A stretch of DNA of 64,000 nucleotides, from the NCBI GenBank assembly GCA_934574095.1, contig CAKTMW010000001.1, positions 6,047-70,046 on the forward strand, in the 5' to 3' direction. The first letter of the stretch is position 1. The number at the start of each line of letters is the position of its first letter. The notes below the pieces were generated by a model. The model ran no database searches and was not told the origin of the DNA. It saw nothing but the letters and a program-made list of their open reading frames with translations. Below are positions 29,919 through 54,418 of this stretch, one piece after another. This DNA is from an uncultured Oscillospiraceae bacterium. Lineage in GTDB: Bacteria; Bacillota; Clostridia; Oscillospirales; Oscillospiraceae. The position numbers were made by a program, and so were the translations under genes.

Positions 29919-29958
29919 AAAAAAGGGCACAAAGCTGCTGTTAAGCCAGCTTTGTGCC
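29919..29958 (-). terminator. Expression-platform terminator of the glycine riboswitch
   Basis: Arms GGGCACAAAGCTG/CAGCTTTGTGCCC followed on the minus strand by TTTTTT. It lies between the riboswitch and the gcvT start, so glycine binding probably prevents it forming. Confidence 0.88.
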
Positions 29959-29959
29959 C

Positions 29960-30142
29960 CCGTTGAGTTACCTGAGAGATTCCCCTTTCCCATGGAAAGA
30001 GTTGCACCTTCGGTGGTCGGGTGTCGCCGCCCGGCCTTTTCGGAGTATCGTCCGGAACCGGTCCTTTTGCCTGAGAGCTTCTGCGTTCCCCTTCGGCGCC
30101 GCGCAAGGCGGTCTCTCCCGATCCCATCGTCCGATGAGTTCC
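29960..30142 (-). ncRNA. Tandem glycine riboswitch
   Basis: On the minus strand two aptamers follow each other. The first has GGGAGAGACC, GCCGAAGGGGAA and CTCTCAGGCAAAAGGACC; the second has CACCGAAGGTGCAA and CTCTCAGGTAACTC. These are the conserved glycine-aptamer motifs in the right order, and they stand before glycine cleavage genes, as in known cases. A terminator hairpin follows, so regulation is by transcription attenuation. Confidence 0.95.
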
Positions 30143-41019: not shown

Positions 41020-41090
41020 GGCCCCGTGTGGCCCGCCGCACGATATTCTCCGCAGCAACGACGGCGGGGCACATTGACCCCGCCCTACAG
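41020..41090. repeat. CCGTAGGG-family palindromic repeat
   Basis: GCCCCGTGTGGCCCGCCGCAC and a following GGCGGGGCACATTGACCCCG unit, ending in GCCCTACAG; same family as 631-917. Confidence 0.75.
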
Positions 41091-43503: not shown

Positions 43504-43690
43504 GGGGCATTGAGGACGCCCCCCTACGAGCAGGTGCGATAGAACTCCGTAGGGGCGGGGCTCTGCCCCGCCCGCCGCATAACGGAAGTACCTACGTCTA
43601 CCAGTGGGAAGGGTAGAACCCCTCCCCTACGCACGGGAACAAGATGCCTGCGGCATCGCGCCGCTCCCTATGAATAGGTCGCCCCTACGC
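43504..43690. repeat. CCGTAGGG-family palindromic repeats
   Basis: Several units including CCGTAGGGGCGGGG...CCCCGCCC and GGGAAGGGTAGAACCCCTCCC, of the same family as 631-917. Together with the operator array they fill the gene-free stretch 43476-43904. Confidence 0.75.
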
Positions 43691-44903: not shown

Positions 44904-44937
44904 ATATCCCACGGCTCTGCCGTGGGATATTTTCTAT
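44904..44937 (+). terminator. Terminator after the ferredoxin gene
   Basis: Perfect arms ATATCCCACGG/CCGTGGGATAT followed by TTTTCT. Confidence 0.85.
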
Positions 44938-44945
44938 ATGTTTTT

Positions 44946-45384
44946 GCCTCCGGCGGCCCCTTTCTTTCAATAGCGAAAGAAAGGGGGAAAGAACGCCAGC
45001 AAAAACTACGTTTTTGCATTTCCTCAGCGCGCTATGCCGCATACAAAGCTGTGAGTATTTTCCTCACGTTCACATAAAATTTTCTTTATCGTTTCGTTAA
45101 AAGGATCGTCTCTGCTCCAGCGCCGCTGCCGCTGATGCCTACGCCGAACAACGCAATAGGTTCTACCGTTGAAAATATGAGCGGCAGCGGCGCAAAACGA
45201 AAATCAATACGTCATACACAACGAAATCATCCGTGTTCTGCAAACGCGTGGTATGAGGCCACAAATTTGTATTATGGCATAGTGCGGGCGGATTCTTAAA
45301 CCGCAGGTTTAAGTGGTTTTTTTTCCTACTTTTGTCACCACGGACAAAAGTAGGGCGCTCCGCAGAGCGAAACAATCCCAACTC
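44946..45384. ncRNA. Candidate structured RNA/element, copy A
   Basis: A gene-free stretch of about 440 bases whose sequence and structure recur at 53825-54265. Hairpins in order: CCCCTTTCTTTC/GAAAGAAAGGGG, GCAAAAAC/GTTTTTGC (44999-45017), GTGAG/CTCAC (45051-45067), a 14-bp stem GCGCCGCTGCCGCT/AGCGGCAGCGGCGC (45120-45133 with 45180-45193), CTTAAACC/GGTTTAAG (45295-45313), CCTACTTTTGTC/GGACAAAAGTAGG (45325-45354) and a small GCTC/GAGC hairpin. Several arms differ from copy B by changes that keep pairing. The strand and the function are unknown; no family is recognised. Confidence 0.6.
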
Positions 45385-45398
45385 CCGCAAAATAATGC

Positions 45399-45427
45399 TT
45401 TACAAGTTTGATTTTCTGTGGTATCCT
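45399..45427 (+). promoter_or_regulatory. rpsO promoter
   Basis: TTTACA (45399-45404) and TATCCT (45422-45427), 17 bases apart. The leader of about 110 bases to rpsO can form hairpins (for example GCAC/GTGC at 45433-45449) and may be a site of S15 autoregulation. Confidence 0.6.
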
Positions 45428-49681: not shown

Positions 49682-49821
49682 GGGGTACTCCTTTCGGGGG
49701 TGGGGTATGAGGGGACGGATCAATCCTACATCGGCCCATATAGCGTTTTTAGTGATTGGCTGTAGGGGCCGATGACTCTTTCGGCCCTGACGACGTAAGA
49801 GAGTGCTTTCAAATTCAAGAT

Positions 49822-49920
49822 GGATGCTACGGCGGCATAGCCGCCGAGATCGGAGGCTAAAAGATGGTGCGGTGCAAACCAAGATAGATGCTACAGCGGC
49901 ATAGCCGCTGAGATCGACAC
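49822..49920. repeat. Direct repeat with a compensated hairpin
   Basis: Two copies of AAGATrGATGCTACrGCGGC...GAGATCG, at about 49818-49862 and 49878-49923. The hairpins GGCGGC/CCGCC and AGCGGC/CCGCT differ by a compensating base pair. Together with a hairpin (49768-49788) this fills the gap 49682-49973 between xdhC and the binding-protein gene. Confidence 0.6.
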
Positions 49921-52599: not shown

Positions 52600-53630
52600 A
52601 GCACATGCTCCTTTCTGGTCATAAGATAGATGAAGAACGGCGCGCCGATAAAGGCCGTCAGGATGCCGATGGGAATCTCCACCGCCAGCAGATTGCGGGA
52701 CACGTTGTCCACCAGCAGCAGGAAGATCGCGCCCAGCAGCATGGCCGCCGGTAGCAGGCGGCGGCAGTCGCTGCCCACCGGCTTGCGGCTGAGATGGGGG
52801 ATCACAAGACCCACCCAGCCGATCATACCGCTGACGGAGACGCTGGCGGCGGTCAGCACCGTGGCGCACAGGATCACCACCAGCCGTAGCGCCGTGGTGT
52901 TGACGCCCATGGAGCGGGTCTCCTCCTCGCTGAGGGTCAGCAGATTGACGCGCCAGCGCAGCAGCAGAAGCGGCACCGCGCCCAGCGCCATCGGCAGCAG
53001 GGCGAAGGTCACGTCCTTCATCCGGGTGCCGCTGAGACTGCCCATGAGCCAATAGGTGATGGCGGGCAGCTGATTGGTGGGGTCGGCCACCAGCTTGATA
53101 TAGGAGGTTCCGGCGGAGAACAAGGATGAGATCATGATGCCCGCCAGCAGCAGGTTCACCACCTGATTGCCCCGGATGCCGCGGGCCAGCACGTACACCA
53201 GCGCCACCGTGGCAAGACTGGCGGCGAAGGCCGCCGCCGTGACGCCGAGACGCTGGAGCCCCAGCAAGATCGCCAGCGCCGCGCCGAAGCAGGCCCCCGA
53301 CGACGCGCCCAGAATGTCCGGCGCGGCCATGGGGTTGCGGAACACCGATTGATAGGCCGTTCCGGCGGCGGACAGAGAGCATCCCACCAGACAGGCCAGC
53401 AGAATGCGGGGCAGCCGCACGTTCAGCACGGCGATCTCCATGTTGCCTGTCCATGTCTGGGTCAGGGGAACGACCCTGGACAGCAGGATGCGCACCACCT
53501 GCCGGATGGGCACATCGTACCGCCCCAGCACGAAGGACGCCAGAAACAGCGCCAGCAGCGCCGCCGCCAGAACGGCGAGCCACAGCGCGGCGCGGCGGTC
53601 GGCTGCGGTGCGGGGCATGGTCTGTCTCAT
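52596..53630 (-). CDS. ABC importer permease (FecCD/BtuC family)
   Basis: A 344-residue permease with about ten membrane helices. Family features: LRLPRILLACLVGCSLSAAG-like NVRLPRILLACLVG, FRNPMAAPDILGASSGACFG, and GMIGWVGLVIPHLSRKPVGSD near the C terminus, where the coupling helix meets the ATPase. It is first in the operon; AAGGAGGG precedes the ATG. A minus-strand TTGCGC-17-TACAAT at about 53670-53698 may be the promoter. Confidence 0.92.
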   Translation of the reverse strand: MRQTMPRTAADRRAALWLAVLAAALLALFLASFVLGRYDVPIRQVVRILLSRVVPLTQTWTGNMEIAVLNVRLPRILLACLVGCSLSAAGTAYQSVFRNPMAAPDILGASSGACFGAALAILLGLQRLGVTAAAFAASLATVALVYVLARGIRGNQVVNLLLAGIMISSLFSAGTSYIKLVADPTNQLPAITYWLMGSLSGTRMKDVTFALLPMALGAVPLLLLRWRVNLLTLSEEETRSMGVNTTALRLVVILCATVLTAASVSVSGMIGWVGLVIPHLSRKPVGSDCRRLLPAAMLLGAIFLLLVDNVSRNLLAVEIPIGILTAFIGAPFFIYLMTRKEHVL

Positions 53631-53739: not shown

Positions 53740-53764
53740 AAACAGGCCGTGACGGCCTGTCTTT
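53740..53764. terminator. Hairpin upstream of the ABC importer operon
   Basis: Arms ACAGGCC/GGCCTGT with T runs on both strands. Confidence 0.6.
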
Positions 53765-53824
53765 TCGTATGGGGTATTTCGCGCCCCGGCGCGAGGGGTG
53801 TTTCGCCCCTGCGGGGATGAGGGC

Positions 53825-54265
53825 GGCCTCCGGCGGCCCTCTTTTCCCAGCAGCTGGAAAAGTGGGCAAAAGAGCCGGAAGAAACCAATGGTTTCTTCAC
53901 TTCCTTGCGCGCTATGGTGCATATAGAATTGTAAGTACTTACCACACGTTCACGCAAGATTTTCTTTTTTCGTTTCGTCAAAAGGATCGTCTTTACTCCT
54001 GCGCCGCTGCCGCTGATGCCAATAATGAACAGCACTGTTGGTTCTACCGTTGATAACGTGAGCGGCAGCGGCGCAAGAAGAAAGTCGATGCGTCACACGT
54101 AACGATAACTACCGTGTTCTGTAAACGCGTGGTATAAGGTATCATAATTGGTAAAAGGGATAGCGTGTGGCGGATTCTTAAACCGCAGGTTTAAGCAGCG
54201 TTTTTGGGTACTTTTGCCGCTGTGGGCAAAAGTACCTCGTCCCCGCAGGGACGAAATATTCCTTC
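53825..54265. ncRNA. Candidate structured RNA/element, copy B
   Basis: Second copy of the element at 44946-45384, about the same length (441 and 439 bases). Hairpins: GAAGAAACC/GGTTTCTTC (53878-53898), GTAAG/CTTAC (53931-53942), a 14-bp stem identical to copy A (54001-54014 with 54061-54074; loop of 46 bases in both), CTTAAACC/GGTTTAAG (54177-54195) and GGTACTTTTGCC/GGCAAAAGTACC (54207-54236; 30 bases in both). Conserved single-stranded blocks include GGTTCTACCGTTGA and AAAAGGATCGTC. It fills most of the gene-free stretch 53631-54412. Confidence 0.6.
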
Positions 54266-54291
54266 GCCCCGGAGGGCGAAACCTCCCAATA

Positions 54292-54418
54292 AGGGCGGGG
54301 AAGAACCCCGCCCCTACAACTGCCTATCGATAGACCGCCGTAGGGCGGGGCCAATGTGCCCCGCCGTTGATGGTACGTCAGGTATCGTGCGGCGGGCCAC
54401 ACGGGGCCCGCCCTACGA
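54292..54418. repeat. CCGTAGGG-family palindromic repeats
   Basis: Units AAGGGCGGGG...CCCCGCCCC, CCGTAGGGCGGGGCC and a closing GGGCCCGCCCTACG, of the family at 631-917. It ends just at the stop of the yqeC gene. Confidence 0.75.

Follow-up and report, generated by a model that had tools for sequence, protein, structure and literature searches.

The window analysed here, a stretch of 64,000 nucleotides from an uncultured Oscillospiraceae bacterium, carries two copies of a long intergenic element. Copy 1 (44946-45378, + strand) lies between a ferredoxin gene and rpsO and runs in the same direction as its neighbouring genes; its limits were set by homology to copy 2. Copy 2 (53769-54290, + strand), the limits of which were taken from the symmetry of its arms, is flanked by an iron ABC permease gene (start at 53630, - strand) and an open reading frame ending at 54413 (- strand), and is opposed to both neighbours. 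By blastn, 44946-45378 and 53825-54262 were 75.5% identical over 440 nt (E value of 2.7e-78), and both copies retain the whole 440 nt in the same order and with the same spacing. This alignment bears out a preliminary description of the DNA, which had proposed two diverged copies of about 440 bp. The coordinates given there do hold the copies but were slightly short in extent, as the inverted-repeat symmetry of copy 2 spans about 53769-54290; the true ends of copy 1 can be placed only to within about 10-40 nt. The window showed no third copy, the best match outside the two having an E value of 0.08.

The two copies share a 14-bp stem, GCGCCGCTGCCGCT, that closes a 46-nt loop, with arms at 45120-45133 and 45180-45193 in copy 1 and at 54001-54014 and 54061-54074 in copy 2; they also share the blocks AAAAGGATCGTC and GGTTCTACCGTTGA and a CTTAAACC hairpin, so that the stem, the loop length, the conserved blocks, and the hairpin had all been described correctly. 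The stem and loop were identified by an inverted-repeat search in copy 1 (45120-45193, + strand), and in copy 2 (54001-54074, + strand) they cap an inverted repeat of 48 nt (77%). Over their full lengths, the left arm of copy 2 (53769-54014) and the reverse-complemented right arm (54061-54290) aligned with each other. With the 14-bp stem left out, the arm-alignment score of copy 2 was 95, whereas 200 shuffles averaged 14.1 (sd 5.6) and reached 36 at most; for copy 1 the score was 56, with an average of 11.4 (sd 5.2) and a maximum of 31 over 200 shuffles. The element is one imperfect foldback, in which the left arm pairs with the right arm along the whole length.

Five hairpins were located at the ends, H1 and H2 in the left end and H3, H4, and H5 in the right end. 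H1 has perfect 12-bp arms in copy 1 (44957-44986; CCCCTTTCTTTC/GAAAGAAAGGGG) and 12-nt arms that are 92% complementary in copy 2 (53836-53867). The arms of H2 are perfect in copy 1 (44999-45017; GCAAAAAC/GTTTTTGC), and the H2 of copy 2 (53878-53898, - strand) was called as an outward-pointing terminator-like hairpin, a call that was not made in copy 1. In copy 1, the 5′ strand of a core-closing helix (45028-45053, + strand), recognized from inverted repeats I6 and I9 and from the fold, has its partner at 45260-45286. Intrinsic-terminator prediction found H3 on the + strand of both copies (45295-45313 and 54177-54195); in copy 1 it reads CTTAAACC/GGTTTAAG followed by a T run. H4 has perfect arms in copy 1 (45325-45354; CCTACTTTTGTC/GACAAAAGTAGG) and was found as an inverted repeat in copy 2 (54207-54236; GGTACTTTTGCC/GGCAAAAGTACC). 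H5 was obtained in copy 1 from a hairpin call and the pair test against copy 2 (45356-45374), and in copy 2 from a hairpin call (54237-54254), 2 of the 7 pairs of which are broken in copy 1.

Folding of 45020-45330 and 53900-54212 gave z scores of -4.2 and -4.1, respectively, each better than all 100 dinucleotide shuffles. When the structure obtained from copy 1 alone was tested on copy 2, 16 of 148 pairs were doubly changed and kept versus 4.5 expected, a count reached by none of 2,000 shuffles, and 26 pairs were broken. The reverse test, with the structure of copy 2 on copy 1, gave 12 kept double changes in 164 pairs versus 5.2 expected (8 of 2,000 shuffles reached this), with 41 pairs broken and 12 more falling on gaps. 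In the copy 1 structure, 13 of the 16 kept double changes fell in the end hairpins, and of the remaining three, one was in a core helix, one in the loop, and one in an outer helix joining left and right. Among the 12 pairs of H1, 4 were doubly changed and kept in copy 2, 6 were unchanged, and 2 were broken; 4 of the 8 pairs of H2 were doubly changed, all of them kept, and the other 4 were unchanged; H4 had 3 kept double changes and 9 unchanged pairs out of 12, and H5, with 5 pairs in this structure, had 2 and 3. The core-closing helix comprised 23 pairs, of which 9 were unchanged, 7 were changed on one side and kept, 7 were broken, and none was doubly changed; the 14-bp stem is unchanged between the copies and hence holds no double change. 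RNAalifold on the two copies yielded kept double changes in 19 of 115 pairs: the end hairpins H1, H2, H4 (including an extension of H4), and H5 held 14 of them, the core 3, and the loop 2. Judged by where the kept double changes fall, covariation between these two sequences supports the end hairpins strongly and the folded core weakly. The end hairpins appear to be conserved in shape more than in sequence. Double changes in palindromes can also be explained by self-templated correction without selection.

Relatives of the element were reached through conceptual peptides. The frame 45078-45299, used as query, retrieved 13 proteins at E ≤ 1; the alignment of these 13, used as a profile, retrieved at least 209 proteins at E ≤ 0.1 (from the best 7,992 candidates scored, with 120 listed), and a third protein search gave 36 proteins, 18 of them new. 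We examined 138 peptides among the matches listed (P0002-P0139), which are conceptual translations, many of them short and some possibly misassembled, and which attest copies rather than hosts; the longest contig per cluster ranged from 501 to 288,377 bases. They represent further copies, read through as peptides, in different contexts, and the left-to-right order was kept in those spanning the element. The 14-bp stem was near-invariant: some variants fit G-U pairs, and SGSDA, SGSGT, and SGRGA imply mismatches. The loop had the forward orientation in 87 of 96 peptides, was inverted in one (P0094), and was unclear in 8; where the 3′ arm was read in the SGSGA frame, it comprised 15 residues in 66 of 74 peptides, 10 in four whose loop sequence differed, and 32-49 in another four.

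The pairing of H1 and H4 was likewise read from these peptides. The loop-side pair of H1 was compatible in 65 of 65 (S/T in 41, P/A in 17, and A/P in 7), fitting T-A, C-G, and G-C in the first-codon letters, and that of H4 was compatible in all 34 (G/P in 24 and P/A in 10). Under a lenient rule, the outer pair of H4 was compatible in 32 of 32 (V/P in 19, S/T in 6, L/T in 4, and A/P, V/L, and L/G in one each), the L and S cases being so for some codons only. None of 20,000 shuffles reached any of the three counts, which are not probabilities, the copies being related and not independent. Three pair types at one place would be hard to get otherwise, except by self-templated palindrome correction or swapping of whole hairpins.

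The ends of the relatives were compared with the two ends of the window copies. For 119 scored left ends, the window left end fitted best in 76 (that of copy 2 in 74 and that of copy 1 in 2) and the reversed right end in 33 (the reverse complement of the copy 1 right end in 31 and of the copy 2 right end in 2), with 10 ties; 14 low-scoring and 5 too-short peptides are left out of this count. Right parts could be scored in 40 peptides, leaving out 6 low-scoring ones and 92 in which the right part was short or missing, and were of the right-end type in 34, of the copy 1 left end reversed in one (P0139), and tied in 5. P0137 has a left end of the window right-end type. In a narrower count of left ends with the DLLL motif, 48 of 60 fitted the window right end reversed, a selective figure that omits the copy 1- and copy 2-like types. 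From these end-fit counts and P0137, the two ends appear to be related inverted repeats that are exchanged in a minority of copies. Terminal inverted repeats, a criterion for MITEs, are present in that the arms align end to end and some relatives' ends match the opposite end of the window copies on the other strand.

Other repeats occur in the window and in some relatives. GC-rich palindromic repeats of the form GGGCGGGG...CCCCGCCC(C)TAC were found at 752-808, 891-915, 41032-41088, 43606-43630, and 54293-54317, one of them directly adjoining the right end of copy 2, and by eye a similar sequence seemingly occupies the P0046 apical loop. Near-tandem copies (80%) of a repeat of 56 nt, which contains a CGGCGGCATAGCCGCCG hairpin, lie at 49797-49852 and 49861-49916, and a repeat similar by translation to that at 49797-49852 is inserted in or beside some foldback copies elsewhere. 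In 7 of the 138 peptides, the copy is followed or interrupted by a repeat that reads SLRSRRLCRRS, and in P0138 this repeat is placed within the H4 hairpin; the same words occur in a - strand open reading frame of the window.

The host is a relative of Vescimonas, as the pnp gene of the window is 89.1% identical to Vescimonas fastidiosa (NZ_AP023416.1) over 100% of the 2,101-base query. In V. fastidiosa, the ferredoxin and rpsO genes are adjacent, with a 178-nt gap that holds no element, versus a gap of about 640 nt in the window. Because the filled and empty states are compared at this one pair only, we consider it likely, not certain, that the element was gained at the ferredoxin-rpsO site; the empty site of V. 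fastidiosa could instead reflect loss of the element. The terminator-like hairpin of the ferredoxin gene (44904-44930) is likewise missing in V. fastidiosa, making the left limit of the inserted DNA uncertain. No target-site duplication was seen by eye when copy 1 was compared with the empty site, where the ends of the element are uncertain. The site of copy 2 is not comparable, because in V. fastidiosa a different gene lies upstream of the iron ABC permease gene. Two replicons of that species other than the main chromosome (860,917 and 142,480 bases) held no copy; a match of H19 lay within a coding gene and was taken as chance. Plasmids, phages, E. coli, and viral contigs also held no copy and returned nothing, or short or stem-only matches taken as chance. 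One pattern scan of genome contigs gave two chance matches, sharing just 14-18 nt with the element, with a pattern that was probably too strict, many relatives having loops that read ASVSTV and not AIGSTV.

Rfam 15 gave nothing at the gathering score over the element, and the weak scattered hits at E ≤ 10, among them miRNA, snoRNA, leader, and sRNA models, were all below the cut-off, in agreement with the earlier remark that no known family was recognized. Elsewhere in the window, two adjacent glycine riboswitch aptamers were matched at 29958-30130 (- strand; Rfam RF00504). A terminator-like hairpin immediately precedes each copy of the element (44904-44930 for copy 1 and 53742-53760 for copy 2); with two cases this may be chance, or it may point to a preference for insertion beside terminators. 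Group IIC introns insert after terminators, and a group II intron was considered because of this placement; no Rfam intron model was among the matches, lenient threshold included.

The preliminary description had left a choice between a large non-coding RNA and a structured mobile repeat. The latter is supported by the empty site, the inverted symmetry over the full length, the exchange of ends in some relatives, and the copies in other contexts, and the RNA part fared less well. An RNA gene present in several copies, in which the core of about 290 nt between H2 and H3 would be transcribed, folded, and ended at H3 to act in trans, would account for the stable fold of both copies (z about -4), the unchanged 14-bp stem, the conserved blocks, and the terminator-like hairpin on the + strand, and a few double changes do fall in the core or loop (2 of 16 in the copy 1 structure test and 5 of 19 by RNAalifold). 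We nevertheless consider such a gene unlikely: the bulk of the double changes is in the end hairpins, with none in the closing helix, where one-sided and broken pairs were found, or in the stem; a search with a simple consensus found no promoter-like site common to both copies; some peptides imply unpaired changes in the stem; the loop varies in length and content among relatives; and Rfam offers no match at the gathering score. It is quite improbable, too, that the element is not one mobile unit but an assemblage of REP-like chromosomal palindromes and terminators that recombination has piled up. The varying number of hairpins at the ends, the occasional exchange of ends, and the other repeats inside or beside some copies would suit this explanation, but the two copies have order, spacing, and all 440 nt in common, the spanning relatives keep the left-to-right order, the arms are symmetric throughout, and TTTCG...CGAAA palindromes are infrequent in the window (1 match versus 0.86 expected).

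Two further explanations concern the genes themselves. The statement that no open frame is shared does not hold strictly, since both copies have a common open frame of 43 codons, at 45090-45218 in copy 1 and in the corresponding aligned part of copy 2. Third positions account for 13 of the 24 differences, the two copies share an ATG in the loop, and the first search with the frame 45078-45299 did retrieve its 13 database proteins. In copy 2, however, stop codons follow the shared stretch. The relatives do not keep the frame: after the loop, the 138 peptides go on in different frames, which form classes of 39, 37, and 21 peptides, a further 9 being mixed and 32 not assignable by the motifs used. 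A small protein gene is therefore very unlikely. No transposase gene was found inside the element, the open reading frames of which are short and not kept in frame, and the element appears to encode no protein. As copy 1 is upstream of rpsO, it might be thought a cis-regulatory leader of that gene, an extremely remote prospect: a promoter-like box, TTTACA-17-TATCCT (45399-45427), lies between the element and rpsO and is for the most part retained in V. fastidiosa, where the gap holds no element, and copy 2 is beside unrelated genes in the other orientation.

Known repeat systems with which the element can be compared include those of Streptococcus pneumoniae, which belongs to another lineage than the host. 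The SPRITE repeat of that species is described as terminator-like, and BOX, RUP, and SPRITE as bunched and even inserted into one another (PMC10969869); their likeness to the element is one of terminator-like character and nesting, and is drawn from that description, not from sequence. Bacterial MITEs are given a size of about 100-200 bp in the outline by Delihas (2007; PMC2229807). According to the same outline, Correia/NEMIS, RUP, and ERIC MITEs are, like the element, short, often intergenic, and without a transposase, and have terminal inverted repeats; listed as further likenesses are long stem-loop transcripts and, in some, open frames, the transcription of the element being predicted. 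Unlike the MITEs of 100-200 bp outlined there, the element spans about 440-520 bp and has at each end a series of hairpins that covary, and target duplication was not found at copy 1.

REP/BIME repeats, linked to IS200/IS605-like RAYT transposases, resemble the element in having palindromes as the repeated unit, and the account consulted describes tags and a hypothesized role in termination (PMC3733652); REPs measure 20-40 bp, whereas the element is much larger and organized as a foldback. The words GTAG and CGTC both occur in places in the element (by eye, uncounted), the former inside the H4 stem of copy 1, where copy 2 has GTAC, and no consistent unpaired tag was seen. Structured RNAs of Rfam share the strong fold and the terminator-like hairpin, but none matched at the gathering score. 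The element could be among the candidate RNAs of the human microbiome, known here by description only, which are characterized as palindromic and terminator-like (PMC8040213). Literature searches over open-licence papers turned up no report of the element; supplements, where candidate RNAs may be listed, were outside this scope.

We conclude that the two copies probably represent a non-autonomous, MITE-like foldback mobile DNA element of about 440-520 bp that carries a transcription terminator-like hairpin. An enzyme supplied elsewhere in the genome would move the element by recognizing its hairpin ends, possibly as single-stranded DNA. Since a transcript entering from the left would end at H3, each copy would act as a portable terminator between genes, and the upstream message would receive a long hairpin at its 3′ end. 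A bolder and rather unlikely version of this mobile-element reading is that of a new class of foldback element in gut Clostridia, moved as folded single-stranded DNA, with interchangeable ends, an invertible or replaceable loop on the 14-bp stem, and a terminator delivered by each insertion; its terminal hairpins would be recognized by shape, so that the stems could drift freely while pairing is kept. The element would represent an apparently undescribed family of mobile repeats, the ends of which are conserved in shape and not in letters, in gut bacteria that have received little study. Its copies would place terminators beside genes, and the element gives rise to false "hypothetical proteins" in catalogues, in view of the at least 209 database proteins at E ≤ 0.1.
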